A DNA stretch of 64,000 nt from a virus, in the IMG/VR virus record IMGVR_UViG_3300028840_001395, positions 124,001 to 188,000 of that record; one strand, written 5' to 3'. This document shows, one piece after another, positions 359 through 14,757 of this stretch. The notes under the pieces are model-generated. The model saw nothing but the letters and a program-made list of their open reading frames with translations, made no database searches and was not told the DNA's origin. How positions within the stretch are numbered: position 1 is the stretch's first letter; each line of letters starts with the position of its first letter. The position numbers and the translations under genes are program-made.

Positions 359-934
359 CTAGTGAGATGTCCCGTAGAGCTTGTGCTCCAGAATGTAGTC
401 CATCACCTTGGGCGGAACCATCTTCCGAGCATGACCCAGACCACCTGGGCCGCTCGCCAGGCTCATCCTGATGTCCGTGCTGCTGATGTCAGGGAGGACG
501 AAGGGCATCTGGGACTCCGCACCATCGGGCCGGGGCATCACGAAGAATTCGACCAACCCGGCCAAGTCCTGCCAACGATGCCAGGAGTGCATCACGCCCT
601 CATTGTCCGAGCCGATGATCAGGAACAGGTCGAAGTCCTCCTTCGGGTACTCGACCCGCATCTTCTCCATGAGATCCACCGTGTAGCGGATACGCAGGAG
701 TCGCTCCATCGAGGACACATGGACGTCCGGCATACCACTGAACGCCCGTCCACACATGAAAAGCCGATGGTCGAAGTCGATGAGGTGGGAGTCCTTGTCG
801 AAGGCGTGGTGCCAGCAGGGGTGGACGTAGATGCGGTCAAACTGGCCCATCACCTGGGCGTAGGCCAGGCCCATGACATGAGCGATGTGGGGTGGGTTGA
901 ACCCGCCGCCGAAGAACGCGATACGCTGCTTCAT
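359..934 (-). CDS. nadD: Nicotinate-nucleotide adenylyltransferase (NadD/NMNAT family)
   Basis: 191 residues, a normal length for the family. It carries the nucleotidyltransferase signature GGGFNPPHIAH (residues 9-19), an IIGSDN segment (about 106-111) and the C-terminal ISSTDIR motif (150-156), which is the ATP-binding ISSTxxR of NadD and NadM enzymes. The enzyme joins the AMP part of ATP to nicotinate (or nicotinamide) mononucleotide. Given the nicotinamidase, NAPRTase and NAD synthetase nearby, nicotinate mononucleotide is the likely substrate. The start overlaps the stop of the upstream Cys-rich gene (ATGA). It belongs to the short unit driven by the phage promoter at 1167-1202, so it is transcribed separately from the other NAD genes. 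Confidence 0.9.
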   Translation of the reverse strand: MKQRIAFFGGGFNPPHIAHVMGLAYAQVMGQFDRIYVHPCWHHAFDKDSHLIDFDHRLFMCGRAFSGMPDVHVSSMERLLRIRYTVDLMEKMRVEYPKEDFDLFLIIGSDNEGVMHSWHRWQDLAGLVEFFVMPRPDGAESQMPFVLPDISSTDIRMSLASGPGGLGHARKMVPPKVMDYILEHKLYGTSH

Positions 935-1152
935 GGTAACACCAACCCCCAGAAGCCAGGAGTGACCCGAGCTACGTCAGGGCAGAGGTAGGCCCGGCAG
1001 ACGGTGGGTCTCTCCTCACGAGGGAGGGTACATCCCGTGTCGCTCCAGTGGCGACAGTAGCCGTCCTTGCGGTAGGGCTTGGCGAAGCCGTAGCCAGGCT
1101 GGTAGCAGCACTCGCCGCATCCCGTGGGGCATTCCCAGTCCTGACCTTCCAT
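931..1152 (-). CDS. YkgJ-like CxxCxxCC metal-binding protein
   Basis: 73 residues with two Cys clusters, CPTGCGECC near the N-terminus and GCTLPREERPTVCRAYLC in the second half. This arrangement is typical of the small zinc/iron-chelating CxxCxxCC (YkgJ) family. The biochemical role of that family is poorly defined; metal binding or an oxidoreductase or maturation role has been suggested. It is the first gene after the phage-type promoter at 1167-1202 and overlaps the nadD-like gene by 4 bp. Confidence 0.75.
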   Translation of the reverse strand: MEGQDWECPTGCGECCYQPGYGFAKPYRKDGYCRHWSDTGCTLPREERPTVCRAYLCPDVARVTPGFWGLVLP

Positions 1153-1166
1153 CGGGGCCTCCAGTC

Positions 1167-1202
1167 ACCTAGACTACTCTCGCGTGTGCCCGTGTAAGCC
1201 CC
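1167..1202 (-). promoter_or_regulatory. Phage-type promoter, minus strand
   Basis: Read on the minus strand, the -35-like GCTTAC (1194-1199) is preceded by a G run and followed after exactly 17 bp by TAGTCT (1171-1176) and AGGTG. It overlaps the stop codon of the 1169-1504 gene and points at the 1152 and nadD genes. Confidence 0.75.
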
Positions 1203-1504
1203 TGGATGGTCGCCATCACCCTGCCGGGGATATTCTGCTCGTAGGGGCGATAGTCCCAGGCGAGCATCTTGGTGAGCCTCTCCTGGTCGAAGGTGTCCTC
1301 GGAGCCTTCCGGATTCCACTCCTGGTCGAAGATGACCAGCATGGTCTTGATGAACTTCCGCAGGTAGTGGTGAACCGAAGGATCTCCGGAGATCTTCCTG
1401 AACACGTCCATGTACTCTACGGGAATGGCGTGGAAGCCCCGCCAGGTGAACGGGAGGAACGCTTGACTACCATCGGGGAGGGTCTTCTGAATCAGATGGT
1501 GCAT
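1169..1504 (-). CDS. Hypothetical protein, 111 aa
   Basis: A soluble, mildly acidic protein with several aromatic residues and no motif that I recognise. There is no signal peptide, membrane segment or Cys cluster. It is the last gene of the long NAD/kinase operon, 13 bp after the Pth2 gene, and its stop codon lies inside the next promoter. Nothing in it suggests a function. Confidence 0.7.
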   Translation of the reverse strand: MHHLIQKTLPDGSQAFLPFTWRGFHAIPVEYMDVFRKISGDPSVHHYLRKFIKTMLVIFDQEWNPEGSEDTFDQERLTKMLAWDYRPYEQNIPGRVMATIQGLTRAHARVV

Positions 1505-1517
1505 CCTCGATGCCCTT

Positions 1518-1958
1518 TCACATCAACTTCAAGTGTCCCGTGATCTCATCGATGGCCTTGGGGTGTGCCGGACCGATGGCCACACAGGTCTTGGTAGGTA
1601 CCCCGTGGAACTCCGTCGCCCCCGAATCAGTGATGACTGCCGTGGGGAATCCGAGTTTCTGGGACTCCTCCGCCAGGGCGAGAAGCTCCTCCTCGTCCTT
1701 GCAGCCCACGACGACCTTGGTGAACAGCCCCTTGATCCAGCCCTCCAACCCCGCCGTGTCCAGCATGACGATGAGACAGGCCATCTCCTTGGTCGTCCTG
1801 CCGGGATTCTGAGGGTCGGCATCGACCTCGACCATCCCGAACTCTCCCCGGTCAAGCAGCACCTTCATCGAGGCATGGGCCACCTGGGCGGCAATCTTGC
1901 CCTTCCGCATCTTGAGATCCTTGCGGACGACGATCACCTGCTTCATCTCATCGGCCAT
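1518..1958 (-). CDS. pth2: Peptidyl-tRNA hydrolase, Pth2 (archaeal/eukaryotic) type
   Basis: 146 residues from the ATG at 1958, which has the stop of the upstream Nudix gene immediately before it; the open frame further upstream is shadow. KQVIVVRKDLKMRKGK followed by AAQVAHASM (residues about 6-31) is the signature of the Pth2 family, as are the later GFPTAVITDSGATEF and GPAHP stretches. Pth2 releases tRNA from prematurely dropped peptidyl-tRNA. Most bacteria use the unrelated Pth1, so this gene probably did not come straight from the host. It may keep tRNAs available when translation aborts under host defence or heavy phage expression; that is inference. Confidence 0.9.
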   Translation of the reverse strand: MADEMKQVIVVRKDLKMRKGKIAAQVAHASMKVLLDRGEFGMVEVDADPQNPGRTTKEMACLIVMLDTAGLEGWIKGLFTKVVVGCKDEEELLALAEESQKLGFPTAVITDSGATEFHGVPTKTCVAIGPAHPKAIDEITGHLKLM

Positions 1959-1959
1959 G

Positions 1960-2652
1960 CTACACCTCGAAGAAGATGCCGTCCTTCTGGAGTCGGCGGT
2001 ACGTGGGGCAGTCGAAGCGGTAGAGCTTCGGAGGACGCCGCCCGATGCTCTTGGTCTCCCCGGTCTCGACCAGGACACCCAGGCGGAGCACCCGGCGGCG
2101 GAAGTTCCGCTTGTCGAGCTTGCGGTCGAGGATGATCTCGTACACTCGCTGCAACTCGGTCAGGGTGAACTCCTCGGGCAACAGGTCGATGCCCAGCGGC
2201 TGCCAGCGGACCTTGGAACGAAGCCGCTCCAGGCCCACCGCCAGAATCTCGGCATGGTCGAAGGCCAGCGCACCCTGGATCTTGTCGGCGGGTGCCCAGG
2301 TGACGCCCTGGGCGTCGCTGCCAGGTTGAAGCTGCATCCCTGTCCTGACCAGCGCCAGGTAGGCGGTCGAGATGTAGTGCCCTCGGGGATCCCGCTTGGG
2401 CTTGCCGAACGTGTAGAGCTGTTCCAGGTAGGAGAGCTTGAGCCCTGTCTCCTCCTGAAGTTCCCGCTTGACCGCTGCATCGAGGTCTTCATCCGGCTCC
2501 ACATGGCCCCCAGGGAGCGCCAGGAGGCCCTTGAACGGCTCCTCTCCCCTTTGGATGAGCAAGACCTGGAGTTCCTCGAAGTCGGCGCTCACACCGAAGA
2601 CCACGGCGTCCACGGTGTTGACGGCTCGCGGGTACTCGTAGGTGTAGCTCAC
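1960..2652 (-). CDS. nrtR: NrtR-like Nudix protein (Nudix domain plus winged-helix C-terminus)
   Basis: 230 residues. The N-terminal Nudix domain has a complete Nudix box (G49, E55, R63-E64, E67-E68, G70), so hydrolysis, for example of ADP-ribose, is possible. The C-terminal 80 residues (from about 145) resemble the winged-helix part of NrtR-family regulators, ending in RRPPKLYRFD and FFEV. NrtR proteins repress NAD synthesis and salvage genes and sense ADP-ribose-type ligands. Location in the same operon as NAD salvage genes supports this call. Possible operator half-sites are at 11472-11498. It overlaps the thioesterase gene by ATGA. The alternative is a pure ADP-ribose pyrophosphatase with a non-DNA-binding tail. 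Confidence 0.82.
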   Translation of the reverse strand: MSYTYEYPRAVNTVDAVVFGVSADFEELQVLLIQRGEEPFKGLLALPGGHVEPDEDLDAAVKRELQEETGLKLSYLEQLYTFGKPKRDPRGHYISTAYLALVRTGMQLQPGSDAQGVTWAPADKIQGALAFDHAEILAVGLERLRSKVRWQPLGIDLLPEEFTLTELQRVYEIILDRKLDKRNFRRRVLRLGVLVETGETKSIGRRPPKLYRFDCPTYRRLQKDGIFFEV

Positions 2653-3302
2653 GATGCCCCCCGGACAGGCACCTTGCGAATGGCACCCTCCTCGTTGCGC
2701 TCGACGGCCACGTAGACGACCTCGGTGGCGACCACGGCGACGGGAGCCGCTTCACCATCGCGGGAGAACTCCACTTCGACCTTGATGGTCAGGGAGGTGT
2801 TGCCGATCTTCACCAGCGTCGTGTAGAGCGTCACCACGTCACCGATAGACACGGGATGGTTGAACTCGATGCCGTTCATGAAGCGGGTGGCAACATCATG
2901 CTTCGTGTGCTTGCGGGCCTCCACGGCTCCTGCCAGATCGATCTCCGCGAGGATAGCTCCGCCGAATACCTCGCCCCGGTGGTTGGTGTCCTTGGGCAGC
3001 AGGATGCGCCGGATGGCCAGATTCCGCCGAGGGGGCTCCTCCTTGAGCTTCTGTGGCTCATCGTGCATCTGGCACTCGGAGACGTGGGTGAGCATGTGCC
3101 GGTATCCCTCCCGTTCGGGGTCAGGTTCGGTGAGGGTGGTGGCCCAGCACCGACAGTCCGGGTCGCCACAGTCGAGGTCGCAGTAGTCGAAGGCATCCTC
3201 GTCCTCGGGCTGGATCTCGACCCGCAGGCGGTTGGAGTTCTTGATGTAGCCGCTGCCCGGAGAGGGCCACACCCAGTCGCCCGGCTTTCGGCGCTTACTC
3301 AT
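2649..3302 (-). CDS. Acyl-CoA thioesterase-like hotdog protein with Cys-rich N-terminus
   Basis: 217 residues from the ATG at 3302. The second half carries the acyl-CoA hydrolase hotdog pattern: DTNHRGEVFGGAILAEIDLAGA, then FNHPVSIGDVVTLYTTL and TSLTIKVEVE. This matches YciA/BACH-type enzymes, which cleave acyl-CoA to CoA and fatty acid. The first 80 residues hold a CDLDCGDPDCRCW cluster that is not part of the usual fold and may bind metal. It lies in the NAD/kinase operon, overlapping the Nudix gene by 4 bp. Together with the CoaB-like gene at 12163 it suggests some interest in CoA pools; the substrate is unknown. Confidence 0.82.
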   Translation of the reverse strand: MSKRRKPGDWVWPSPGSGYIKNSNRLRVEIQPEDEDAFDYCDLDCGDPDCRCWATTLTEPDPEREGYRHMLTHVSECQMHDEPQKLKEEPPRRNLAIRRILLPKDTNHRGEVFGGAILAEIDLAGAVEARKHTKHDVATRFMNGIEFNHPVSIGDVVTLYTTLVKIGNTSLTIKVEVEFSRDGEAAPVAVVATEVVYVAVERNEEGAIRKVPVRGAS

Positions 3303-3342
3303 CTTCGACCTCCAGTTCCTCAATGTACCCCTCGGGGCCACC

Positions 3343-3543
3343 CTAGTCGTCCCGGAAGGTGGCGACGAACTCGCCCTCCATCGTGACCTCGTAGCCATGC
3401 TCGTCGTGGATGGTGTCGGGGAAGATCAGCCCTGCGAACTCACCGTGGAGAACCTCGACCGCGACCTGGCGGTGACGGCTGGCCTTGATCACGTCCGAGG
3501 GTGTGTCCGGCTCGTGTCGGTATCTGGCGACGTAGATCTTCAT
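3343..3543 (-). CDS. Hypothetical protein, 66 aa
   Basis: The start at 3543 is set by an ATGA overlap with the upstream gene; the longer open frame is shadow. The sequence MKIYVARYRHEPDTPSD looks like an alternating beta-strand protein. No known domain, Cys cluster or membrane segment is visible. It is part of the NAD/kinase operon. Confidence 0.7.
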   Translation of the reverse strand: MKIYVARYRHEPDTPSDVIKASRHRQVAVEVLHGEFAGLIFPDTIHDEHGYEVTMEGEFVATFRDD

Positions 3544-3776
3544 TCGGGAAGCTCCTTCTCCGACCAGATGATGAACGGCCCCTGTCCTGACCCCAAGATC
3601 ATGTAGCCGTGCTCGGGATGCTTGGCCAACCCAGTCGGCCCACTGGGGCCGTCCATCTCCATCCGGAGAATCGCGCGGCCCTCTTCGGGCATCTTGGGGA
3701 GATGCTGTCTCCACTGAGACAGCGGGATGAGGTGCTTCTCGGCCTCGAAGGCGATCTTGCTCAGGTGGTGACTCAC
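3540..3776 (-). CDS. Hypothetical protein, 78 aa
   Basis: It begins with GTG at 3776, overlapping the stop of the kinase gene (GTGA). Soluble, with a helical N-terminal half and a Gly/Pro-containing C-terminal half. I recognise no family. It may be an accessory partner of the kinase because of its place directly downstream, but there is no direct evidence. Confidence 0.65.
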   Translation of the reverse strand: MSHHLSKIAFEAEKHLIPLSQWRQHLPKMPEEGRAILRMEMDGPSGPTGLAKHPEHGYMILGSGQGPFIIWSEKELPE

Positions 3777-5518
3777 TTGCTCCCCTTCATCTTGGCCCAG
3801 TAGAGCTTGTCGCCCTGGGCGATGACGAGCTTCGACCCGCTCTTGTAGAGCCGCATGTCGCCCGAGAGCGCCGGGTCATCGATCTCCTTGACCGACGCCG
3901 AATCCTTCCGGGAGGAGCACAGCTCCAGCTTGGAATCCTCGTTGAGACAGACACACACGCCCGAAGCGAGCACCACGAAGTTGAGACCCCCGTGCTGGAT
4001 GTCCTCGACCAGGCGCACGTCGTAGCTGTAGTCACGGGGGTCGAAGCGGAACACCAGCCGGTCATACTGGCCCTTCTTCTCCCCGATGACCATCAGCACT
4101 CCACCGCTGTCCTCATCGGTGCTGTCGAACTTGGCGTCGAGGACGCGGTAGTCGTCCAACTCCTTCATCCGCACCTGGTAGGACTGATCCCCCCGCAGGA
4201 TGGAGACGTGAACGGCCCCGAGGAGTTTCTGGACGACCACACCGGGGTAGAGCCGGGCCGCGTGCTCCAACGTCTGGGCGACCTTGTTGGAGGAGGCGAT
4301 GATATCTGGCCCGGCCTCGTTGAGCACGATGCGATACACGGCGTCCCGAGTCCGCATGTAGAGGTTGCCCCCACCCGACGACACCTCCAGGGCTTCCAGG
4401 TTGAATCCGAGGTACTTGCGATCCTTCACGCTATAGAGCTTGAGCGTCCCGCCCGAGTGGTCAGCCAGCACGGGCCATGCACACCAGGTAAAGCCCAGGC
4501 CAGAGAGCTTTTTCGGGGCGTCTCCACACCGCTTGCCCGGATGGCCCAGGTTGTACCAGATGCCCTGGTCGGTGACAGCGACCAGGGCAGAGGTCGAGTG
4601 CTGGAAGCTGTCCATGCTCCAGAAGCCTCGGACGGTGCCCTTGTGTCCCAGGTCGTCCAGTTCGACCATCTCGATGATGTCCGACCCGGCCACGGCCTTG
4701 ACCTTCGGGACGATGACGGCCACGACTCCGAACTCGCCCGGAGGAGGCAGGCGCTTGCCCTGCTTGAACAGCGCCTCGTACCACTGCCGGTAGGCGGAGG
4801 GGATGACGCTGAAGTCGTAGGCCACCGCAGGCACCTTGACGTTCGGGTCGAACACCGAGATGCCCCGCTGCATCCGGGTCTCCAATCCCTTCGCCGTGGG
4901 GTGCTTGCCCTTGTAGGGGTGGATGCCGGTGAACATCTGGAAGCTGACGATGGCGAAGCTGAACCAGTCGGACAGTTCCGAGAAGTCTGCGGGCTCGACC
5001 GACCAGTCCCGGATCGAGGGCATGATCGCAGAGGCGGGGAAGCTCCGCGTCTGGTAGCTGGCGGCGTCGATGCCGTAGACATCATCGAACTTCTTGCCGA
5101 CGAGGAAGTTCATCTCATTGCCGTCCACCAGGAGCACGTCGGCCTTGTGGACATTGGATACCAGGTCTTGTAGCTTGCGAACAAGCTCCCGCATCCTGTC
5201 GTGGGTCAGGCCCTCTCGCTCTCGGAAGACACGGGGGAACAACTGGCACAACGCCCAGGCGTCCCTGATGAAGCGCATGGTGTAGCCGATGGGCTTCTTC
5301 TTGGTGTCGGTCAGGAGTCCCAACGGGCGAATCACCCGGTCATCCTTGATGGCTGACAGTTCGTGGATCTTGCCCAGCGGGGGCATCGTCTTGGGGTCGT
5401 GGTAGACCTTGAATGACCGCTGGCCACGGGCGTACACGACGCCTTCGCCGCCCTCTCCGACGTAGTTCGCCTGCGTCAGCGTGACCGGCTTGGACTCGCC
5501 CTTGACGTAGACCTTCAT
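3773..5518 (-). CDS. Ser/Thr protein kinase-like protein with long C-terminal sensor-like region
   Basis: 581 residues from the ATG at 5518, set by an ATGA overlap. The N-terminal 280 residues look like a protein kinase: glycine-rich loop GEGGEGVVY (21-29), FKVY with the ATP-binding Lys (K37), a catalytic-loop D132...N137 pair within VDGNEMNFLV, and IDAAS (D151) in place of DFG. The HRD histidine/arginine is not conserved, so it is a divergent kinase. Residues from about 290 on contain short beta-rich repeats with IWYNLGH, LYMRTRDAVY and LYKSGSKLVIA, resembling a beta-propeller. With the PP2C and vWA genes in the same operon it forms a set like the TerY-P triad. Substrates are unknown. Confidence 0.8.
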   Translation of the reverse strand: MKVYVKGESKPVTLTQANYVGEGGEGVVYARGQRSFKVYHDPKTMPPLGKIHELSAIKDDRVIRPLGLLTDTKKKPIGYTMRFIRDAWALCQLFPRVFREREGLTHDRMRELVRKLQDLVSNVHKADVLLVDGNEMNFLVGKKFDDVYGIDAASYQTRSFPASAIMPSIRDWSVEPADFSELSDWFSFAIVSFQMFTGIHPYKGKHPTAKGLETRMQRGISVFDPNVKVPAVAYDFSVIPSAYRQWYEALFKQGKRLPPPGEFGVVAVIVPKVKAVAGSDIIEMVELDDLGHKGTVRGFWSMDSFQHSTSALVAVTDQGIWYNLGHPGKRCGDAPKKLSGLGFTWCAWPVLADHSGGTLKLYSVKDRKYLGFNLEALEVSSGGGNLYMRTRDAVYRIVLNEAGPDIIASSNKVAQTLEHAARLYPGVVVQKLLGAVHVSILRGDQSYQVRMKELDDYRVLDAKFDSTDEDSGGVLMVIGEKKGQYDRLVFRFDPRDYSYDVRLVEDIQHGGLNFVVLASGVCVCLNEDSKLELCSSRKDSASVKEIDDPALSGDMRLYKSGSKLVIAQGDKLYWAKMKGSK

Positions 5519-5772
5519 TTCACCACCCACAGCCAGCCGACGATGCGGCTTTTCTGGTCACCCCTCATGGAATGGAACAGCACGAAGGGATCACCTTTCC
5601 ATCCTTTGCATTTGGGAGGAAGGTCACGTTCGTAGTGGTATCTTTCCACCACGAACCCACAACAGGACTGCGGCTCGGACTCCACCACGAGGATGCACTG
5701 GTTGGGCTGTCCCTCTGGAAGCTCCTCGATGGGGTGAAGGAGAGCCTTGAAGTCGGGATGGAGGGTCTTCAT
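5515..5772 (-). CDS. Hypothetical protein, 85 aa
   Basis: A small soluble protein with two adjacent Cys residues in SCCGFVVERYHYERD and a Trp-rich end (GWLWVVK). No recognised domain. It overlaps both neighbours by ATGA and sits between the kinase and phosphatase genes, so it may be co-translated with them. Confidence 0.7.
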   Translation of the reverse strand: MKTLHPDFKALLHPIEELPEGQPNQCILVVESEPQSCCGFVVERYHYERDLPPKCKGWKGDPFVLFHSMRGDQKSRIVGWLWVVK

Positions 5773-6098: not shown

Positions 6099-6365
6099 CT
6101 AGCTCCCCCAGTACTCGGCACGGAGCATCTTCTCCGTGAGTGCGTATCCCTTGTTGCACCTCGTCCCGACCAGGTACACCCCATCTTCCAGGGTCCAGCC
6201 GGGCGCACCGAAGTTCGGATGCCGCTGGGCGTGTTCGTGGCCGGAGCAGACGATGATCTTGCCCGATTCGTGGACGAGCAGGCAGTAGTCCTTGAGAAGC
6301 AGGTAGGCCAGGTGCTCCTGATCTTCCAGGGCTGCCTCTGCGATCTCGTCGGCCAGCGTACTCAC
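6099..6365 (-). CDS. Hypothetical protein, 88 aa
   Basis: It begins MSTLADEIAEAALEDQEHLAYLLL, an acidic helix, followed by VHESGKIIVCSGHEHAQRH with several His residues. There is no clear domain. Its start overlaps the stop of the PP2C gene. Function unknown. Confidence 0.7.
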   Translation of the reverse strand: MSTLADEIAEAALEDQEHLAYLLLKDYCLLVHESGKIIVCSGHEHAQRHPNFGAPGWTLEDGVYLVGTRCNKGYALTEKMLRAEYWGS

Positions 6366-7267
6366 GCATCCCCCAGGTAGATCGCACCGACGCCCAGGTC
6401 ATCGTAGTGCTGCCAGTGGTTCTTCACGCAGAAGCGGGTCAGGAAGCTCTTGCACCTCCGGGCCATAAACTCCCCCGTAAAGCTCTTGATGTCCGTCAAA
6501 TGACCCAGAACCCAGGCCATCGGGATGCGCTCCATCGTCTCGGCGTCCTGGAAGCTCTGAACGCCATCGGAGAACACCGCCACCAGGTCGTACAGCTTGG
6601 GGTCGAAGGTCATGACGAAGGGGAAGTTGTCGTAGGTGACCGTCTGACCCGGTTCACCCTCGATAATCACGGGCCAGTCCCAGTGGTTGTCCGGCTCGGC
6701 CCCCTCCCGCAGCTTCTCCAGGGAATCCCACCGACGCAAGATGCGACCCTCATGCGTCCCACTCGCCTCCATCGTCGCCTCGATGGCCTCCTTGTAGACC
6801 AGGAGCCGGTCCGGGTTGAGCAGGTAGGACAGATAGCTCGGGGCGTTCTGGCAGTCGATCTCGACCACCTCGACCTGTCCCGTCTCCCGCTGCCGGGCAG
6901 CTATCACCCCATCCCCGCAGGTGATGACCTGCACGGAGCCGTCATCCTGCTGGTAGGCCGTCAAGAGGGTGGCGTCAAGACTTTGACGCTTGAGGCTCTG
7001 GGGCAGCTTGTCCAGGGCGTGCCAGATGAGCCAGTCCACCTTCTCGGGCAGCCGGTCACCCAGAATCTCGATCCCCGTGACAGCGGCCATCGTCAGGAGC
7101 CGGGAGCCGAAGTCCGTGTCCGGCGAGCCGGAGCAGCCGTCCGAGACGATGGCGAAGGTGCGGGCACCCTCGTCCACCCCGAACCGGGCCGGGGTCCGAC
7201 CAGAGCGGGCGTAGTCCTGGCAGACCGCGTGAGCCTTGCCCCGAGTGAAGAAGGCATCCGAGTGCAT
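6362..7267 (-). CDS. PP2C-family protein phosphatase
   Basis: 301 residues. PP2C hallmarks appear in order: QDYA (17-20), AIVSDGCSGS with D43-G44, TLLTA, CGDGVIA (D119), VAVFSDGVQSF (D234) and the C-terminal HYDDLGVGA pair (D289-D290). These are the metal-binding aspartates of PP2C enzymes, so it should be active. It would reverse phosphorylation made by the kinase at 3773-5518. The vWA gene lies directly upstream. PP2C, vWA and kinase together are the make-up of the TerY-P triad described in stress and defence islands. Confidence 0.87.
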   Translation of the reverse strand: MHSDAFFTRGKAHAVCQDYARSGRTPARFGVDEGARTFAIVSDGCSGSPDTDFGSRLLTMAAVTGIEILGDRLPEKVDWLIWHALDKLPQSLKRQSLDATLLTAYQQDDGSVQVITCGDGVIAARQRETGQVEVVEIDCQNAPSYLSYLLNPDRLLVYKEAIEATMEASGTHEGRILRRWDSLEKLREGAEPDNHWDWPVIIEGEPGQTVTYDNFPFVMTFDPKLYDLVAVFSDGVQSFQDAETMERIPMAWVLGHLTDIKSFTGEFMARRCKSFLTRFCVKNHWQHYDDLGVGAIYLGDA

Positions 7268-7279: not shown

Positions 7280-8020
7280 TCAGAAGGTCAACGACTGCGA
7301 CGGCCCGCCCGTGCCGAGCGCCTGGCTCTGAGACGAGAAGGACTTGGAGATGAAACCGCCCAGCTTGGCCAGCTCCTTCTCGGTCGCGTTGGCGATGGCC
7401 ACGTACTGCTGGAACCCCGCCTCGTCCCGGAAGTCCTCCAGGTAGGAGTTGAGGCCCGTGCTGGCGTCCGTGTTCACGCCGATGAGGACCGGCATGATGG
7501 ACTCCAGGGCCTCCTTGCGGCGGGCCTCGGCCAGGGCGTCCTTGACCATCTTGCGGCTGCACTTGCCCTTGTTGTGCTCCCCGTCCGTGATGACGAACAC
7601 GCAGGCGTTGCAGTCGAAGTCGTTGTCCACGAGGGTCTGGCCGTACTGCATGGCCGAGTGGACGGCCTGGTAGGTCGCGTCGTGCAGCGCCGTCAGCCCA
7701 CCCTCGGGCAGGCAGTCGTCGTAGTCGGCCTCGTTGCAGTCCGCCAGCGGCTTGAAGCCGTGGAACTCCTGCACCTTGTCATCGAAGAAGGTCACGCGGA
7801 GCATCATGTTGTCCGCACGGGGAGACCGGCGGCAGGCCTTGACGACCTCCTTGAGCGCGGCCTCGATCTCCTTGCGGAAACCCCAGACCGAGCCGGACAC
7901 GTCCACGACGATCTCGCCCAGCGTGTACTCGGTCGCGCCGAGTTCCTCGATGCGGGTGCCGGAGAACTTGAAGTTGGTGCCACCGATCTGGTGGGTCTCC
8001 ATGTCAGCGAGCTTGGGCAT
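7280..8020 (-). CDS. von Willebrand factor A domain protein, TerY-like
   Basis: 246 residues. A complete MIDAS metal site is visible: DVSGS (40-44), the Thr in GGLTALHD (T110) and ITDGE (D146). This is a vWA domain spanning nearly the whole protein, as in TerY-type proteins. vWA domains bind protein partners through a bridging metal ion. Its place just upstream of the PP2C and kinase genes suggests it presents targets to that pair. The C-terminal tail is Ser/Gln/Gly-rich and probably disordered. Confidence 0.85.
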   Translation of the reverse strand: MPKLADMETHQIGGTNFKFSGTRIEELGATEYTLGEIVVDVSGSVWGFRKEIEAALKEVVKACRRSPRADNMMLRVTFFDDKVQEFHGFKPLADCNEADYDDCLPEGGLTALHDATYQAVHSAMQYGQTLVDNDFDCNACVFVITDGEHNKGKCSRKMVKDALAEARRKEALESIMPVLIGVNTDASTGLNSYLEDFRDEAGFQQYVAIANATEKELAKLGGFISKSFSSQSQALGTGGPSQSLTF

Positions 8021-8032: not shown

Positions 8033-8887
8033 TCAGGCCAGGAAGTTGACGGTGGTGTCGGTCTTCATCCCCTTGGCGGTCATCTCCTTCACGAAGTCGT
8101 CGCCCAGGGACTCGAAGCCGCCGACGCTGCTGCTGGCGTCCGTGAGCAGGCACAGCTTCTCGACGTACTTGGGGTCGGAGAAGCAGTCCGCGATGTCCCG
8201 CGCCGTGTTGGCCATGCAGTGCGAGAGCGCCTCGCCCGTCATGCCGATGATGTCGGCCTCCTCCAGCGTCTGGATGAGCTTGGTGTTGACCTGCGACTCG
8301 GGGTCGTTCGGGTCGGGCACCTCGGCCTTGACGCCGGAGAAGTGCTCCGTCCAGGGGTTGCTGCCCTTGGTCACGTAGTCGGTCTGGGCGAAGTTGCGCT
8401 CCTCCCAGCCCTGGAGCGCCTGGAACACGACGGGCACGATGTTGTGGCCCCAGGAGCCGATGAGGCAGTGCGGGGGCCAGATGCAGTGCGGGTAGCGCCC
8501 ACCCGCCGTCAGGGCCTTGAGGTAGTCCCGCGAGCGGTCGAGGAAGCTCGGCAGGTGGGTGGTGAACTCCTGGTCGGTCGGGGCCATGTTGTTCGTCGGG
8601 TCGAGGGCAACGATCTTGTCACCGTCCATCCCGAGCAGCGTGAAGGGCGCGGGCGGGTTGCCCGCCGAGTCCTTCCACCACTTCGGGTGGGAGATGTCGA
8701 TCAGCCGGTGGCTGTCGAGGGTGACGTGGATGTCATCGAACTTGTCGCCCACGCGGTCGATCATCGCCGCGAGTCGCGTCATGTCCTCGTCCGCGCCGGG
8801 CACCACGAGTGCCCCCTGGTTGCCGTGTCCGTCGTCCGCGATGCAGAAGTCGTTCTGCGGGTCGATGATCAAGAGCTGGATGTTCAT
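8033..8887 (-). CDS. pncA: Nicotinamidase-like cysteine hydrolase (isochorismatase fold)
   Basis: 284 residues. LLIIDPQNDF (catalytic D9, D13), VTLDSHRLIDISHP with metal-ligand candidates D58, H60 and H67, a lysine in YVTKGSNPW (K174) and GEALSHCMANT with the nucleophile C224 match the nicotinamidase/isochorismatase family. It is longer than usual PncA (about 210 residues), mainly through an insertion between residues 75 and 170. Deamidation of nicotinamide to nicotinate is the likely reaction because the next two upstream genes use nicotinate derivatives. Another amide is possible. Confidence 0.82.
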   Translation of the reverse strand: MNIQLLIIDPQNDFCIADDGHGNQGALVVPGADEDMTRLAAMIDRVGDKFDDIHVTLDSHRLIDISHPKWWKDSAGNPPAPFTLLGMDGDKIVALDPTNNMAPTDQEFTTHLPSFLDRSRDYLKALTAGGRYPHCIWPPHCLIGSWGHNIVPVVFQALQGWEERNFAQTDYVTKGSNPWTEHFSGVKAEVPDPNDPESQVNTKLIQTLEEADIIGMTGEALSHCMANTARDIADCFSDPKYVEKLCLLTDASSSVGGFESLGDDFVKEMTAKGMKTDTTVNFLA

Positions 8888-8923: not shown

Positions 8924-10000
8924 TCACTCGGGCACCTGGGGAAGCTCATCGGTCAGGAAGCCCGCCTTGACCAGTTCCGCTCGCGTCCCCAGCATCGGGA
9001 TGTTCGGGTTCGCCTTGTGTCTCGTCTGCGCCTCGGCCCGGCGGGCAGCCTTGAGGAAGTCCAGCACGAACGCCTTGGGCACCGGCTGCCAGAGGGCGCT
9101 CTTCACCGCGAAGCCTTCGAGGGACTTCCAATCCGGCTCCGTGAAATCGAACAGCACCTTGTCCACCTGGACGAGGCTGCTGTAGCGCACATCGTAGTAG
9201 GGGATCTCCACATCGAGGAACCGGCTCACCCGCTCGATGGTGCCGATACGCATGATGTCGCCCGTGTCCGGGTTGATGCGCCCGTAGGTGAAGGGCATCC
9301 CGAGCCAGTCGAGAAGCTCCTTCTCGTCCGAGTGCCCATCCCCGGTCCCCCACAGGTCGGGCGACGGGGTGGCCTCGATGATGGGCCGGACGACATCGTA
9401 GATGCCCAGCTTGTTGCCCAGGTAGAAGGCAAGCTGGTACACCTCGGTCTTGCTCAGCATGGCGAGCGGATTGGTGTCCACCTCGCCGTCGCCGCCCTTC
9501 TGGTAGAAGCGCAGCCAGCGATCCTCGCACTCGTTGCCGGTCCCGTGCCGGATGCCCCCGCCCATGATGCGGTTGTAGGCACGACCGATGGGTGCCCGCA
9601 GGGTCGAGCGGATGCTTCCGAGGATGGTCGGGTCGGCATCCATGCGTTCCTTGATCTCGGTGCCGATGTCGGTGCCGAAGTGGGCGTCCACGAGCGACGT
9701 GATCACCTCGTCACGGACGTTGTTGAAGATGTCGTTGAAGTGTCCGATGGCCAGAGGCACCTGGAGAGCCTCGCACAGCTCCCGCGCACGGTCGGTCTGC
9801 TGGAAGCTCGTGTGGATGATGGTGTGGTCGAAGATGCAGTTCTCCGGCCCCAGCGCCTTCACGAGCAACATCGTCATCACGGCGGAGTCGATGCCCCCGG
9901 AGATGTCGAGCTGCGCCTTCGGAACCCCGAACTCGTCGTGATACTCACGGATGGACTGCATCCGGTCACGAGCGAGTCCCTTGGCATCAATGACAGGCAT
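8924..10000 (-). CDS. nadE: NAD synthetase, ammonia-dependent type
   Basis: 358 residues from the ATG at 10000, which shares its A with the stop of the upstream gene. LDISGGIDSAV (31-41) is the ATP-pyrophosphatase loop of NAD synthetases. No glutaminase domain is present, so free ammonia should be the nitrogen donor. The enzyme converts nicotinate adenine dinucleotide to NAD+. It is longer than the common 275-residue NadE. Neighbours are the NAPRTase and nicotinamidase genes, which make it the last step of a deamidating salvage route. Confidence 0.9.
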   Translation of the reverse strand: MPVIDAKGLARDRMQSIREYHDEFGVPKAQLDISGGIDSAVMTMLLVKALGPENCIFDHTIIHTSFQQTDRARELCEALQVPLAIGHFNDIFNNVRDEVITSLVDAHFGTDIGTEIKERMDADPTILGSIRSTLRAPIGRAYNRIMGGGIRHGTGNECEDRWLRFYQKGGDGEVDTNPLAMLSKTEVYQLAFYLGNKLGIYDVVRPIIEATPSPDLWGTGDGHSDEKELLDWLGMPFTYGRINPDTGDIMRIGTIERVSRFLDVEIPYYDVRYSSLVQVDKVLFDFTEPDWKSLEGFAVKSALWQPVPKAFVLDFLKAARRAEAQTRHKANPNIPMLGTRAELVKAGFLTDELPQVPE

Positions 10001-11466
10001 CACATACCTCCCCGGACACGCGCCCACTGCTCCTTGATCATGGCCTTCAGCGCCCTCGTGTGTTCCGACACCTCGGGCTTCACGGTGTCCGTGTGGGTCA
10101 GCCGGTGGAAGCCCTTCGGCTCGGACTCCCACTCCTGGCCGACGACGCTGCGCTTGCCATCCTCACTGCGGAAGATCACGGGCTTGCCGGGCAAGGACAT
10201 CTTGCCCTCGACGGCGAACTTCATCACGTCGCGCTCGCCCGTCCGGCACAGCTTGTAGACCGCCGACACGGCGTTCCGGGTGAACTTGTGCGGGGAGGGG
10301 TCGCAGACGAGGAAGCCGCCAGAGCCGTAGCCCGACTGCTCGGGAGTGATGCCCAGCGACTCGCAGAGCACCTCCTGCGCTCGCGCCTTGAGGACGTTGA
10401 TTCCGTCCATGAACATGTAGAAGGGATTGACGTGTTCCTCGGCCTCGGCCTGGACGTACTCGCGGAGCTGAGCCTCCTGGTCGCCCGAGTCGAAGCGGAC
10501 ACCGTGCTGGATGTCCGGGCGTTCCTTCATCGCCTGGACGGCGGCGGGGATGCCGACCTCCATCGCGTCGAAGGTGTCGAACAGGTAGGAGGGCCGCTGC
10601 GGGCGCATGTCCCGGATGGCCCGGAAGGCGTCCAGGTCGTTGCCCCACCGCTGCTGATGCTCGTGGCCCGTGGTGCCGACCGGCACCATCCCCATCTGCT
10701 TCGCGCCCCAGACGTTCGATGTCCGGGTGATGCCCGCCTCCTTGCAGGCGGACAGGGCGATCTCGTGCATCTGGAGGCAGGTCGCGCCTCGCATCCCGAC
10801 CTCGAAGATGCGGTCGCCGCCGACGATGTTGACCAGCCCCTTGGCGTTGTGGAGCACCTTCATGAAGTAGTCGTCCTGCTGGACGGTGATGTCCCGGTCA
10901 TCCTCGCGCTCGATGGCCTCGCAGGTGAGCCGGACGATCTCGGCCTCATCCTCGCAGGTGCAGCGGAACTCACGGGTGTCGTTGGTCAGCACCTCGGTTG
11001 CGATCTGGATGGGGAAGTGCAGGGCGATGGCCAGCGGCTCCAGCCACGACACCAGGAACGAGGGGCCGGTGATGGTGGCGATGGGTTCCCGTGCCATGAC
11101 CCAGGTGCCAGGAGGCGCACAGGTGACCTCGATGTCCTGCTTGAGCGCGACCTCCATCGACTGCGACATGCCGTAGCCGAACATCCGGAGGTAGTCGTTC
11201 TCACCGGGCCAGATCTCGTCCGGCAGCAGCTCGCGGATGAGCAGGTTGAGGTCGAAGGGGATGTAGTGGGTGCCACGTCGGAAGGACAGGTAGAACGTCT
11301 CGCGCCGGAGGGGGAAGCCCGCCTGGGCCATCGAGAACTTGTAGCCGTCCGACATCAGCACGGACGGATCCTTGCCGTTGAGCATCCGCCCGGCGACATC
11401 GAACTCGATGCACTGGTCGGTTCCGACCCTCGCCAGTCTGCTCTGTCTCTTTGCTCTCTCGTTCAC
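10000..11466 (-). CDS. pncB: Nicotinate phosphoribosyltransferase-like enzyme
   Basis: 488 residues starting with GTG at 11466, with GGAGG about 10 nt upstream. SDGYKFSMAQ (39-48), TSNVWGAKQMGMVPVGTTGHE and LFDTFDAMEVGIPAA match the NAPRTase pattern (SNVLAGK...GT.AHS...DTYDT). The reaction is nicotinate plus PRPP to nicotinate mononucleotide. Nicotinamide phosphoribosyltransferase (NadV) is a relative, but the adjacent nicotinamidase and NAD synthetase favour nicotinate as substrate. It is the first gene of the operon and has two tandem promoters, host-type (11488-11516) and phage-type (11537-11565). Confidence 0.85.
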   Translation of the reverse strand: MNERAKRQSRLARVGTDQCIEFDVAGRMLNGKDPSVLMSDGYKFSMAQAGFPLRRETFYLSFRRGTHYIPFDLNLLIRELLPDEIWPGENDYLRMFGYGMSQSMEVALKQDIEVTCAPPGTWVMAREPIATITGPSFLVSWLEPLAIALHFPIQIATEVLTNDTREFRCTCEDEAEIVRLTCEAIEREDDRDITVQQDDYFMKVLHNAKGLVNIVGGDRIFEVGMRGATCLQMHEIALSACKEAGITRTSNVWGAKQMGMVPVGTTGHEHQQRWGNDLDAFRAIRDMRPQRPSYLFDTFDAMEVGIPAAVQAMKERPDIQHGVRFDSGDQEAQLREYVQAEAEEHVNPFYMFMDGINVLKARAQEVLCESLGITPEQSGYGSGGFLVCDPSPHKFTRNAVSAVYKLCRTGERDVMKFAVEGKMSLPGKPVIFRSEDGKRSVVGQEWESEPKGFHRLTHTDTVKPEVSEHTRALKAMIKEQWARVRGGM

Positions 11467-12172: not shown

Positions 12173-13287
12173 TGGATGAACCCATGTCCTTCGATGTTGA
12201 AAACGGGGCCGGGGATGATCCGGTTGTTGTCGCGGACGGTGCCCGGCGGAGCGTGCGGCACAGTCGGCACGTCGGGAAGCTGCTCGTGCAGGTGGAGGAC
12301 GGCCTTGGACTCGTGGGTTTCTCCGACCGCGATGAGCAGCGGGGCGTTGAGCGTGGCCTTGGTGTTGCCCTCAACCAAGATGGTCGAGCCGTGTGTGGCA
12401 CACCCCTCCCACCCCTTCACCAGCACAGCATCCTTGCTGGTGAATCCCACACCCTTCTCCCGAGGGCTGCACAGCCATCCGAACCCCGGCAGCTTGACGG
12501 CGAGGGAACCGAACACTCGATGTTCTCCTTCGATGGGCTTGATGAAGCGGTCGAGGTTCTCCTCCACAATGCGGTCGAACAGGCGGAACCGATCCGGGAA
12601 GTTCTTCTGCGCCTGCTCCATGAGGATGTAGCCCCCGCTCAGTTCCGTCCGGTAGTGCTCGTCCTCGATGACCGCCAGGAGGTCGGCGTAGAAGGCGTTC
12701 CAGTCGTCCTCGTGGGTCACGACCGTCCTGTCCTTGTGGACGAGGTACTTGGTCTTGAGGCCACGGCCCATGTCGTTGGCGATCACCAGGTTGCAGCGAG
12801 CGTTGAGCAGGACGTGGTACGCCGCCTCGATCAGCGCCTCGTGATCCGCGTTGACCAGCATCTTGCAGCCGATGAGGGTCAGCTTCGGGTTGTTGACCTT
12901 CATGTCCTCGATGACCCGAGGGGCGAGGATGAAGGGCACCCGAATGATGTCTCCGGGCTTGTACCCGGCGGTGGGCATCTTGCCCTCGTAGGGTTCGGCG
13001 GGAATCCAGTTGACCACGGCTGCGGCCATGATGGCGGCGTCGTGGGTCTTGGCGAGTTCCAGGGCCTTCATGTGGTACTGCATGAAGCCCTTGTGCCGGA
13101 CGACCTTGATACCCACAGAGGGCTGGTGCTGGAACGTGTCCGCCACCAGGAGCGTGACCTGGTGGCCTCGCCGGACGAGGTAGTGACCGAACTTCACGGC
13201 CCAGATACCCCGGATTCTGTTGCTCACGAGCTTGTTGGCGTCTAGCGACCCGTAGACGGGGCCAGCAGTGATGAGGATCTTCTTCAC
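12163..13287 (-). CDS. CoaB-like (phosphopantothenoylcysteine synthetase / DFP family) protein
   Basis: 374 residues from GTG at 13287, chosen because of the GTGA overlap and a GGAGG 7 nt upstream; the longer frame is shadow. KKILITAGPVYGSLDANKLVSNR...GHQVTLL at the N-terminus matches the Rossmann-like start of CoaB/DFP proteins (ILITAGGT...R.ISNRSSG...GHEVTL). CoaB joins phosphopantothenate and cysteine in CoA synthesis. The C-terminal third (from about 260) is not typical and has a LHLHEQLPDVPTVPHAPPG segment. It may be a functional CoaB or a related NTP-binding protein with another job. Confidence 0.72.
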   Translation of the reverse strand: MKKILITAGPVYGSLDANKLVSNRIRGIWAVKFGHYLVRRGHQVTLLVADTFQHQPSVGIKVVRHKGFMQYHMKALELAKTHDAAIMAAAVVNWIPAEPYEGKMPTAGYKPGDIIRVPFILAPRVIEDMKVNNPKLTLIGCKMLVNADHEALIEAAYHVLLNARCNLVIANDMGRGLKTKYLVHKDRTVVTHEDDWNAFYADLLAVIEDEHYRTELSGGYILMEQAQKNFPDRFRLFDRIVEENLDRFIKPIEGEHRVFGSLAVKLPGFGWLCSPREKGVGFTSKDAVLVKGWEGCATHGSTILVEGNTKATLNAPLLIAVGETHESKAVLHLHEQLPDVPTVPHAPPGTVRDNNRIIPGPVFNIEGHGFIQCL

Positions 13288-13946
13288 TTCGCAACCTCCA
13301 GATGCTTCGGCTTGGTGCAGACCCAGCGCAGCCCCCGCCCGTGCTCCTCCAAGAGCACCTTGAATCCCGCCAGGCAGAGGAGGCGGCGGATGTCCTGAGC
13401 CGGGTGATACCGGAAGTGGGTCACGTCCCAGCCCGTCCCCAGCCGCCACTGGAGATGGACGACATGCTCGCCCCAGGCGTAGTGGCACTCGAAGTATCGG
13501 GAATCCCTGAACTTGTAGGACTTCCATGAGTAGGGCCGGGGCTGGATGAACGTGCTGAACACGAACTGACCGCCGGGCTGCAGGACGCGGAAGACCGCCG
13601 GAATGACGAGCGATGGATTGAGGTAGCCCATCGCCTGTCGGCAGACGACCACATCAAAGGTGTCACGCGGGAAGTAGATGGCCAGGTTCTCGGCCCGGCC
13701 CCGGACGGTCTCGATCTCCTTGTGCTTGCAGCGAGGGTTGATATCGAACAGCGTGATGTCTGAGGGATTCTGGCGACCGGCTTCCCAGCCTCGGCAGTGA
13801 GCGGCCAGCGACACGGCTCCCGTTCCCCCGCAGAGGTCGAGCAGCTTGAGGCCCGGCTCGTAGTCCACCAGGTCGAGCAGGTCGTGGGGCTGTTGCAGCC
13901 AGGGGGCGTAGATGTCGGCGTACTTCTCGGTGGTGCAGTTCAGCAA
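13284..13946 (-). CDS. SAM-dependent methyltransferase, class I
   Basis: 220 residues. LKLLDLCGGTGAVSLAA (motif I, about residues 33-49), ITLFDINPRCK (motif II acidic residue) and FDVVVCRQAMGYLNPS (motif IV region) are those of class I methyltransferases. The end of the protein carries FRYHPAQDIRRLLCLAGFKVLLEE, typical of small-molecule methyltransferases of the UbiE/Methyltransf_11 type. The substrate is unknown. It overlaps the CoaB-like gene by GTGA. Confidence 0.85.
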   Translation of the reverse strand: MLNCTTEKYADIYAPWLQQPHDLLDLVDYEPGLKLLDLCGGTGAVSLAAHCRGWEAGRQNPSDITLFDINPRCKHKEIETVRGRAENLAIYFPRDTFDVVVCRQAMGYLNPSLVIPAVFRVLQPGGQFVFSTFIQPRPYSWKSYKFRDSRYFECHYAWGEHVVHLQWRLGTGWDVTHFRYHPAQDIRRLLCLAGFKVLLEEHGRGLRWVCTKPKHLEVAK

Positions 13947-14140
13947 TCGATGACCTCCAGGGCTGCTCGGACGCGCTCGACACGCTCCGGGTTGGAACCC
14001 CCGTCATAGGCGGCAGCGACCAGGGCGGCAGCCCCTCGCAGGAGAACGCGGAAGCCTTCTCCCAGGACTCGATCACCGACCTTGGCGTGGGCCATGATCT
14101 CGCGGACGACTAGGTTGAGGGTCTGACGGGGTTGAGCCAT
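13940..14140 (-). CDS. Hypothetical protein, 66 aa
   Basis: A short helical protein beginning MAQPRQTLNLVVREIMAHAK with an Ala-rich centre (RGAAALVAAAYDGG). It overlaps the start of the methyltransferase gene by 7 bp. No known family is visible. Confidence 0.65.
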   Translation of the reverse strand: MAQPRQTLNLVVREIMAHAKVGDRVLGEGFRVLLRGAAALVAAAYDGGSNPERVERVRAALEVIDC

Positions 14141-14196
14141 CTGTCTATCTCCTTCCCCTGCCCGAAGTCGGGCGGGGAGGTCAGCACCAAGTCATG

Positions 14197-14757
14197 CTAC
14201 CCGATCTCCTCCCAGCAGCGCTTGAACTCCTCGAACTCCTCGTCCATGAACAGCATGAAGGTCAGCTCCTGGAGCCGCCACTGCTTGCAGGCGATGATGG
14301 CCTTGACCGTTCTGACGAAGTTCTCGATGGTGCAGCCGAACACCCCGCACGAGATCGCGGGCATCGCCATCGTGCGGAGGTGCATGGCCGAGGCCATGTC
14401 CAGGCAGGCGACGATGGACAGCCCGAGCATCACCTCGGGGGCAGCGAAGTACTTGCCCTCGCCCGGATGAACCGGGGCGCGAGCCGTGGGGCTGTCGGGG
14501 AAGATGGGACCGACCGTGTGGATGATGAAGTTGGCGGGCAGATCGAAACCCGGCGTCACGCGGGCGTCTCCGGTCGGACAGCGGACGTGGATGGACACCT
14601 CGGGGATCTTCTTGCAGCACTCCAGCAGTTCCGACCCGGCAGCCCGGTGGATGCAGCCATCCACTCCCCCGCCGCCCAGGAGAGTCACGTTGGCGGCGTT
14701 GACGATGGCGTCACCCTCGAACTGTGTGATGTCGCCTTGCTCGATCTTGATCTTCAT
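14197..14757 (-). CDS. Macrodomain ADP-ribose-binding protein (YmdB/MacroD-like)
   Basis: 186 residues, the size of a stand-alone macrodomain. GDIT (8-11), DAIVNAAN (16-23), GGGGVDGCIHRAAG (about 28-41), CPTGDARVTPG, IIHTVGP and the later MPAISCGVFG loop are the classical ligand-binding motifs. Such proteins bind or hydrolyse ADP-ribose, O-acetyl-ADP-ribose or ADP-ribosylated targets. With the NAD salvage and Nudix genes it points to handling of NAD breakdown products or of ADP-ribose-type immune signals. It is the first gene after the phage promoter at 14774-14802. Confidence 0.92.
   Translation of the reverse strand: MKIKIEQGDITQFEGDAIVNAANVTLLGGGGVDGCIHRAAGSELLECCKKIPEVSIHVRCPTGDARVTPGFDLPANFIIHTVGPIFPDSPTARAPVHPGEGKYFAAPEVMLGLSIVACLDMASAMHLRTMAMPAISCGVFGCTIENFVRTVKAIIACKQWRLQELTFMLFMDEEFEEFKRCWEEIG

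Follow-up and report, generated by a model that had tools for sequence, protein, structure and literature searches.

By what route might a phage rebuild NAD+ from nicotinamide, and what would tell it when to do so? These questions are raised by a block of genes in a 64,000-base stretch (bases 124,001-188,000, hereafter the window) of the 435,804-base IMG/VR virus record G000. The block encodes a predicted nicotinamidase (PncA), nicotinate phosphoribosyltransferase (NAPRT), nicotinate mononucleotide adenylyltransferase (NadD) and NAD+ synthetase (NadE), together with an NrtR-like regulator and a triad of vWA, PP2C-like and protein-kinase-like proteins. NADase defences release nicotinamide and ADP-ribose (PMC12774641), and the NAD+-replenishing systems NARP1 and NARP2 have been described (PMC11984713). 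We favor, at a probability of roughly 0.58, the reading that the block is a repressible operon for deamidating NAD+ resupply, which would rebuild NAD+ from nicotinamide under repression by NrtR and induction by ADP-ribose and would let infection continue. That the four enzymes form a complete deamidating route distinct from NARP1 and NARP2, as the first-pass annotation of this DNA had claimed, is well supported by motifs, structural models and synteny across divergent phage contigs. An anti-defence role is plausible and control by ADP-ribose probable, both as inferences.

All genes of the block lie on the minus strand with small open reading frames (ORFs) interspersed, and they would be transcribed in the order NAPRT, NadE, PncA, the triad, a thioesterase, NrtR, Pth2 and NadD (Table 1). 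PncA would convert nicotinamide to nicotinate, NAPRT would combine nicotinate with phosphoribosyl pyrophosphate (PRPP) to give the mononucleotide, NadD would adenylate nicotinate mononucleotide, and NadE would re-amidate the product to NAD+. This four-step route from nicotinamide carries a higher ATP cost and passes through more stable intermediates (PMC9316036). The ORFs all lie where the first-pass annotation placed them, on the minus strand; for the gene at 8924, the upstream start that made NadE an ORF of 402 aa is too early, and the conserved start at 10003 is the correct one. Its outline of the block was right for the four enzymes and NrtR; the vWA, PP2C and kinase-like genes had been omitted, and the macrodomain gene falls 5' of the conserved run.

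Table 1. Features of the block, listed in the direction of transcription (positions in the window; A10 is the kinase alignment).
Feature	Positions	Strand	Evidence or remark
Macrodomain	14197..14757	-	PF01661 E 6.2e-30; 5' of the conserved run
Predicted sigma-70-like promoter, TTGACA-17-TATAAA	11488..11516	-	21 bases 5' of the NAPRT GTG at 11466
NAPRT (PncB-like)	10000..11466	-	opens the conserved run; GTG start, GGAGG upstream
NadE, ammonia-dependent NAD+ synthetase type without glutaminase domain	8924..10003	-	359 aa
PncA, nicotinamidase	8033..8887	-	D9, D58, H60, H67, K174, C224 invariant in 41 rows
vWA domain protein (TerY-like)	7280..8020	-	PF13519 E 3.5e-4, 21.6 bits, under cut-off 27
PP2C-like phosphatase	6362..7267	-	PF13672 32.3 bits, cut-off 24
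Protein-kinase-like protein, long C-terminal extension	3773..5530	-	profile A10 against solved kinases E 7e-5 (weak)
Hotdog (4HBT) thioesterase	2649..3398	-	PF03061 E 4e-11; also in relatives L061, L071, L080
NrtR-like regulator, Nudix domain and winged helix	1960..2652	-	NrtR_WHD E 2.2e-26, NUDIX E 1.2e-21
Pth2 peptidyl-tRNA hydrolase	1518..1946	-	adjoins NrtR; PF01981 E 7e-33; ends the run in L094 too
NadD	359..934	-	PF01467 44.4 bits (cut-off 21)

As a single sequence, PncA scores 17.3 bits against PF00857 (cut-off 27) and 20.1 bits against NCBIfam PRK11609 (cut-off 174). Searches uncovered relatives at 51 further viral loci, and an alignment of 41 of these 52 sequences (A1; eight identical proteins and the partial or divergent L047, L050 and L051 were dropped) yields a profile that finds solved nicotinamidases in the PDB, among them yeast Pnc1 at E 3e-17. 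Of the invariant residues, we take D9, K174 and C224 to be the catalytic Asp-Lys-Cys and D58, H60 and H67 to be the metal-binding set. The structural model, with a predicted local distance difference test score (pLDDT) of 96.9, retrieves nicotinamidases in all of Foldseek rows 1-14 (E 1e-13 to 3e-8). By alignment and model, fold and residues are those of a nicotinamidase, and activity on nicotinamide is predicted. Two other viral contigs may hold mixed sets: L050 (7378-8646) and L051 (7256-8545) each encode what appears by eye to be a fused nicotinamide mononucleotide (NMN) adenylyltransferase-Nudix protein (NadM-like), no more than 3 kb from a weak PncA match.

NAPRT passes the cut-off of PF04095 (23.5 bits against 20.8) and scores 89.1 bits against NCBIfam TIGR01513, under the equivalog cut-off of 297.4. 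Profiles were needed to recover its viral relatives, a query with the single sequence finding none; they located 20 further loci, 17 of which make up with the window an alignment of 18 rows (A4, identical proteins dropped). The motifs TSN, GTTGHEH and RFDSGD are present in the window, their positions are invariant or nearly so in the 18 rows, and the family profile has the solved NAPRT 2f7f as its top structural match (E 5e-29). In VIA-align the NAPRT model (pLDDT 91.6) superposes on six solved NAPRTs with Z 27.1-30.5 and a root-mean-square deviation (rmsd) of 2.8-3.2 over 352-365 residues, as against Z of at most 17.2 for NadV, Namat and NAMPT (Namat 16.1, a poor fit). The E. faecalis NAPRT (2f7f/4mzy), although the best sequence match, superposes badly overall (Z 15.4-15.7, rmsd 21), and in Foldseek NAMPTs are mixed among the NAPRTs below the first eight rows. 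TSN occurs in 17 of the 18 family rows and in 2f7f, where KVP40 NadV has GTDT, a correspondence set by eye in a region of KVP40 NadV that MAFFT misplaced. The Asp of GTDT we take to be the NAMPT-type residue, equivalent to Namat D215. Replacement of that residue in Namat (D215A) cuts NAD+ output about 8-fold (PMC12774641). A six-frame search of G000 with the NadV profile phrog_448 gave no match at 1e-3 or better, the KVP40 control scoring E 1.5e-166; searched as a protein, the window NAPRT matches phrog_448 weakly (E 5e-8). We dropped NadV/NAMPT as an identity for this phosphoribosyltransferase on the structural ranking, the six-frame search and the TSN-GTDT difference, and its placement with NAPRTs, not with NAMPT, NadV or Namat, is well supported by the model. 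A distant NAPRT-like match was also seen in a cultured jumbo phage, Bacillus phage G (gp277; JN638751, 203091-203678; 27% identity, E 2e-7).

NadE, scanned as the longer 402-aa ORF, meets the cut-off of PF02540 (E 1e-17) and falls slightly below that of TIGR00552 (59.7 bits against 63.65). The window protein has SGGIDS, GTGNECE and YQKGGDGEVD; across 16 rows (A5, the window and 15 of 19 loci, identical proteins dropped) SGG[IV]DS is kept in 15, GTGN in all and YQKxxDGxxD in 15, and the nearest solved structure to the profile is an NH3-dependent NadE (E 4e-18). NadD scores 99.4 bits against TIGR00482 (E 2.6e-28; cut-off 112.45) and contains GGGFNPPHIAH, with both His and with Ala for Gly, and SSTDIR, motifs whose usual forms we take to be (H/T)xGH and SSTxIR. 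Its phage relatives vary more, with 11 invariant columns in 12 rows. Judged by family, the identities of PncA, NAPRT and NadE are settled, and that of NadD is probable. The claim of the first-pass annotation that all four enzymes are present thus holds for proteins that have diverged and have kept their main catalytic motifs; in the profile searches it had proposed, NadD, NrtR, NadE, NAPRT and Macro match, and PncA, below its Pfam cut-off as a single sequence, is recognized through the 41-row profile.

We examined conservation of the block in 45 virus records (G handles; loci carry L handles) chosen for relatives of PncA, NAPRT or NadE, so that the counts express no prevalence. Window-type NAPRT (E < 1e-180) occurs in 15 records and window-type NadE (E < 1e-100) in 13. 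Among the ten with both, NadD is found in eight (TIGR00482 E < 1e-15, none over the cut-off) and PncA in nine, PncA having been searched in 23 records that include all 15 with window-type NAPRT. The four-gene set, for which the first-pass annotation had suggested a survey of other phages, is present in seven of the 45: G000 itself, G030 (618,736 bases), G031 (188,175), G032 (402,383), G034 (536,053), G040 (106,830) and G041 (230,069). Outside the seven, up to three further records, G005, G021 and G043 (those of L009, L039 and L090), carry PncA and NadD with a NadE of another or weaker type, whose match in G043 contains a stop codon, and a weakly matching phosphoribosyltransferase; they are possibly independent assemblies of the same four-step route.

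In eight of nine other mapped regions the genes lie on one strand in the order NAPRT, NadE, PncA, vWA, PP2C, kinase, followed by NrtR and/or NadD, with small genes inserted. The mapping profiles draw in part on these very phages, a bias towards finding the genes but not towards any order, and they reveal some run genes that greedy ORF picking had hidden. Identity of the relatives to the window is only 38-47% for NAPRT, 37-54% for NadE and 41-67% for PncA, and the shared order has therefore been kept over a long divergence; on this synteny, the gene cluster is a conserved unit. In one region, L096, NAPRT and NadE are separated by a PRPP-synthetase-type gene (134 bits, cut-off 113), which could supply the other substrate of NAPRT; this region also has a thioesterase and a macrodomain before NrtR.

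The same evidence bears on whether a bacterial NAD operon was fused to a phage contig by contamination or mis-assembly. The record is a metagenomic contig that carries no completeness estimate, which leaves room for such an artefact; this explanation is nevertheless very improbable, since eight other contigs, 98,702 to 618,736 bases in length, have the same order, window-type NAPRT occurs in only one of the best 80 cellular loci (L136, perhaps a binned phage), and phage replication and structural genes lie on the same contig. Among 54 long ORFs from outside the window are matches to portal, baseplate wedge, UvsX, Dda helicase, DNA polymerase and clamp loader families (among 25 listed of the 40 families matched), and the window itself encodes an rIIA-like protein (18790-20943; phrog_612 E 1e-98). 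By these matches the contig is that of a tailed phage, in agreement with the earlier assignment of the DNA to a phage. For the relatives, assignment to phages depends mainly on their IMG/VR class: Terminase_6N (Pfam) was found in none of 11 records and Phage_sheath_1 in one of 15, under its cut-off, and rIIA (phrog_612) occurs in five of 15 records but also in three of 14 control genomes.

Bacterial counterparts of the block exist. Cellular genomes hold at least 522 PncA relatives, and in the best 80 of these loci the genes nearby include vWA (30), kinase (27), PP2C (27), NrtR (25), NAPRT (14) and NadE (7). In isolates of Andreprevotia (L151, L180) and Chitinimonas (L148), NrtR is divergent from PncA-NAPRT-NadE and the locus has no triad match, and in a Rhodoferax metagenome-assembled genome (L124) NrtR, NAPRT and NadE are divergent from PncA-vWA-PP2C-kinase. 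These clusters share enzymes and regulator family with the phage run, whereas the phage NAPRT and NadE are divergent types of their own and the phage clusters add NadD and the triad within a single run. Against the phage profile, every cellular NAPRT other than that of L136 gives at best E 2e-20, and some contigs of metagenome-assembled genomes, such as L136, may be binned phages. Because related PncA-NAPRT-NadE-NrtR and PncA-triad clusters occur in bacteria, the phages probably captured a bacterial module. In a quick PncA tree, phage rows with NAD genes need 5 changes against a shuffled mean of 14.4, a hint only, as L053 and L042 form long branches and 50 of 128 inner branches are open.

If the enzymes would carry out resupply, the regulator would decide its timing. 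The NrtR winged helix scores 92.2 bits against PF21906 (cut-off 27) and the whole protein 188.5 bits against NCBIfam NF050029, under the cut-off of 400; AraR, 2fml and 3gz5 are the nearest solved structures to the profile. The Nudix box of the window protein is exact (GHVEPDEDLDAAVKRELQEETG), and the intact box reported by the first-pass annotation is thus borne out. In the alignment (A7; 10 of 17 NrtR/Nudix matches were used, the rest being plain Nudix, cut or outside the run, and L063 and L085 are one phage) the strict box pattern is kept in five of 11 rows and its RExxEE core in all 11. The intact box suggests that NrtR may in addition be a hydrolase of ADP-ribose, with AMP and ribose 5-phosphate as products. 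The winged helix is found in 10 of the 15 records with window-type NAPRT and in none of the 30 others (Fisher one-sided 9e-7, relatedness ignored).

Upstream of NAPRT, the predicted promoter (11516-11488) has one mismatch, and none of 200 shuffles was as good; it can be put forward, weakly, as a candidate site of NrtR control. In 12 phages with NAPRT beside NadE, inverted repeats near the best promoter sum to 75 against 56.2 (standard deviation 3.5), a value reached by none of 200 dinucleotide shuffles, with the excess driven by G030, G032, G004 and G040; six other NAPRT loci display no excess (31 against 27.9; 33 of 200 shuffles). This comparison was a single run with author-set parameters, made after the sequences had been viewed, and because shuffles lacking any match were given a score of 99, their promoter scores add up to an inflated sum. 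The 12 include G031, with a Nudix gene but nothing above threshold for the NrtR winged helix, and G033, in which PncA and the triad are absent; the six include G037, with NrtR far from NAPRT, and L053, with NadE and a divergent PncA and triad. At the sequence level the repeats are suggestive of a repressor site and of nothing more specific.

The macrodomain fares differently from NrtR. It lies inside the conserved run in one of the nine other mapped regions (L096), and is over its cut-off in five of the 15 records with window-type NAPRT and seven of the 30 without (Fisher p 0.50). It was dropped as a constant part of the operon, being in the run only in L096 and not tracking NAPRT, so that the earlier description of ADP-ribose-handling proteins in the block is upheld for NrtR and not for the macrodomain. 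An observation that favors the macrodomain comes from a bacterium: at about 14.7 kb in the locus L148 of Chitinimonas prasina, a macrodomain gene directly follows NAPRT and NadE in an NrtR-PncA cluster.

How might these parts work together? NrtR-type regulators sense ADP-ribose (PMC9503650). Because NADase defences yield nicotinamide and ADP-ribose, NrtR types sense ADP-ribose and the route starts at nicotinamide, we propose a circuit in which transcription would begin at the promoter just 5' of NAPRT and would be repressed by the phage NrtR; the ADP-ribose and nicotinamide released by NADase defences would, respectively, lift NrtR off the DNA and feed the route, and the induced operon would refill NAD+ and allow infection to continue. 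The triad would probably switch the enzymes, or else the response, by phosphorylation. A more elaborate form of this proposal, a self-triggering rescue circuit, is tentative and on balance doubtful: in addition to sensing ADP-ribose and inducing a route whose intermediates (nicotinate, nicotinate mononucleotide and nicotinate adenine dinucleotide) would resist NADases, the Nudix domain would return ADP-ribose towards AMP and, as a source of PRPP, ribose phosphate, and the triad would gate the enzymes by phosphorylation. If this is true, phage NAD+ reconstitution would gain a third class, one under regulation.

Several findings weigh against resupply as the role of the block. None of the four enzymes reaches an NCBIfam equivalog cut-off, a sign of their divergence; NadD is under the TIGR00482 cut-off in all seven four-enzyme records, and in the window it has HIAH in place of HxGH, the usual form. 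Some of the enzymes could be inactive or could have changed substrate, with PncA acting on another amide or the phosphoribosyltransferase on nicotinamide, and the pathway would then be incomplete. The scores of PncA under its Pfam cut-off and of all four under the NCBIfam ones, and the few invariant columns among NadD relatives, are what this alternative would predict; it is made improbable by the invariance of the catalytic and metal positions in PncA, by the invariant or nearly invariant motifs of NAPRT and NadE, by the structural ranking of NAPRT over NAMPT, and by the linkage to NrtR in ten records and to a PRPP-synthetase-type gene in one. As to regulation, a second promoter scan, which accepts only second hexamers ending in T, lists no promoter in 1-17500, and the inverted repeat of the window itself is no better than shuffles (a fraction of 0.405 were as good). 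A common phage NrtR operator sequence was considered and rejected, as the inverted repeats beside the NAPRT promoter vary from phage to phage and no motif was seen to be shared.

Further contrary points come from the company that PncA keeps. Within 10 kb of PncA, vWA is found in 46, PP2C in 45 and kinase in 45 of the 51 viral loci (several of which are copies or are cut by contig ends), compared with 5 for NAPRT and 6 for NadE. With these counts, the commonest form in the viral contigs examined is PncA with the triad, a set of companions that the first-pass annotation overlooked together with the bacterial counterparts. Most viral PncA loci thus have the triad and neither NAPRT nor NadE inside 10 kb, and PncA may for that reason serve something else in triad-only loci. 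Conversely, G033 (L095) has NAPRT, NadE, NadD and NrtR in that order, with no PncA match and no triad.

The triad itself has recognizable family features. In the vWA protein, 28 rows (A8, 27 of 45 matches) share the MIDAS-type residues D40, S44, T110 and D146 without exception and S42 almost without exception; the acidic positions D43, D119, D234 and D289 of the PP2C-like protein, which presumably bind metal, are invariant in 27 rows (A9, 26 of 44 matches); and H128, D136, N141 and D155 of the kinase-like protein are invariant in 27 rows (A10; L006, L020, L044, L046, L053, L056, L064 and L090 were dropped, three of them divergent). Neither the vWA nor the PP2C profile finds a PDB match at 1e-3, and the kinase-like protein has no Pfam match at 0.1. 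A run of vWA, PP2C phosphatase and protein kinase genes is also what defines the TerY-P triad (PMC11090510). TerY-P kinases have a C-terminal zinc ribbon (PMC11090510), whereas the phage kinases have a long extension in which no cysteine falls in the invariant or 90% columns of the 27 rows and no zinc ribbon signature is therefore seen.

It is accordingly conceivable that two modules travel together, a PncA-triad cassette for signalling or for defence or exclusion, TerY-P-like, whose amidase would act on nicotinamide or another amide, and a separate NAPRT-NadE-NadD-NrtR module. The viral counts given above, the pairing of PncA with the triad in 27-30 of the best 80 cellular loci, the anti-phage defence reported for TerY-P-like modules whose kinase has an OB fold (Gao et al. 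2020 as cited in PMC11090510) and the composition of G033 all fit this view. It has to contend, however, with the arrangement in eight of nine regions, where NAPRT and NadE immediately precede PncA in an unchanged order, with PncA homologues beside NAPRT and NadE and no triad match in the Andreprevotia and Chitinimonas isolates, and with the nicotinamidase fold and residues of PncA; we regard it as unlikely, though by no means negligible.

Lastly, the hosts presumably have NAD+ synthesis of their own, and metabolism, not counter-defence, could be what the genes support. They would then be an auxiliary set that keeps NAD+ high over the long infection of a phage whose genome is very large, in slow-growing hosts, or that offsets consumption by phage enzymes. 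NadE is annotated as an auxiliary gene in cyanophages and a pelagiphage (tblastn matches), and the operon type resembles chromosomal NrtR clusters of bacteria, which are presumably homeostatic. Yet a repressor has been retained, which points to conditional use; nicotinamide, the input, arises from NAD+ cleavage; and a single rate-limiting enzyme would suffice for metabolic support. These inferences make metabolism alone a rather unlikely account, and we retain the NrtR-controlled resupply operon as our reading.

The operon has several relatives among described systems. NARP2 reportedly consists of NadV and NMNAT. NARP1 comprises Adps and Namat, as the first-pass annotation had it, and needs two steps to turn ADP-ribose pyrophosphate and nicotinamide into NAD+ (PMC12774641). 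Like NARP1, the present block would be a phage-encoded means of NAD+ resupply from the products of NADase defences, but with four steps, deamidated intermediates and a NAPRT-like enzyme in place of one of the Namat type; the only search made for Adps in G000, with a PRPP-synthetase profile as proxy, reached 15.9 bits. NARP2 and the phage NadV/NadM/NadR route, as in KVP40, likewise salvage nicotinamide through a phosphoribosyltransferase and an adenylyltransferase, but NadV makes NMN directly, and its profile is unmatched in G000 in the six-frame search described above. NadV, NadM and NadR were given as the principal phage enzymes of NAD+ synthesis in an analysis of 21,191 viral proteomes (Iyer et al. 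2022, PMC9503650), and a 2021 survey of jumbo phages describes the NMN route (PMC7824862). A partial precedent is Xanthomonas phage X1 (2026), for which DRAM-v labels pncB, nadM, nadD, nadE and NAMPT and a counter to NAD+ depletion is suggested; passages on X1 name no nicotinamidase, operon, NrtR or triad (PMC13384950). In tblastn with the window NAPRT and NadE at 1e-5, no Xanthomonas phage was matched in a collection whose content of X1 or its relative was unchecked. The literature that we searched held no report of a phage nicotinamidase, the full four-enzyme set, a phage NrtR or a linkage to the triad. The block thus appears to be a new variant of phage NAD+ reconstitution beside NARP1, NARP2 and the NadV routes, with X1 as partial precedent.

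Some neighboring genes deserve mention. Between NAPRT and the macrodomain gene lie a 210-aa ORF and a CoaB-like (DFP) protein and methyltransferase (12163-13946); the same pair occurs within 6 kb of NAPRT in L053, L054 and L071, hinting at a link to coenzyme A metabolism. A 795-aa protein (14804-17191) has no Pfam, PHROG or PADLOC match; its relatives, 49-64% identical, lie close to the NAD run in L053, L061 and L071. Between NadD and Pth2 is a short cysteine-rich protein (CPTGCGECC..., 931-1152) with no Pfam match, and the presence of Pth2 beside NrtR is probably incidental. The window also encodes an ArdC-like protein of the anti-restriction type (ArdcN and MPTase-PolyVal; 21350-22594).

The deamidating operon would show that phages refill NAD+ by this route too, beyond NARP1 or NadV, and it would tie a TerY-P-like phospho-switch to NAD+ metabolism. 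The regulator is the most valuable new lead: the conserved operon encodes its own candidate for an ADP-ribose sensor, and ADP-ribose is the damage signal of NADase defences, which makes the regulation of counter-defence directly testable. Several giant phages with the four-enzyme cluster could in this way undo defences that kill by destroying NAD+.

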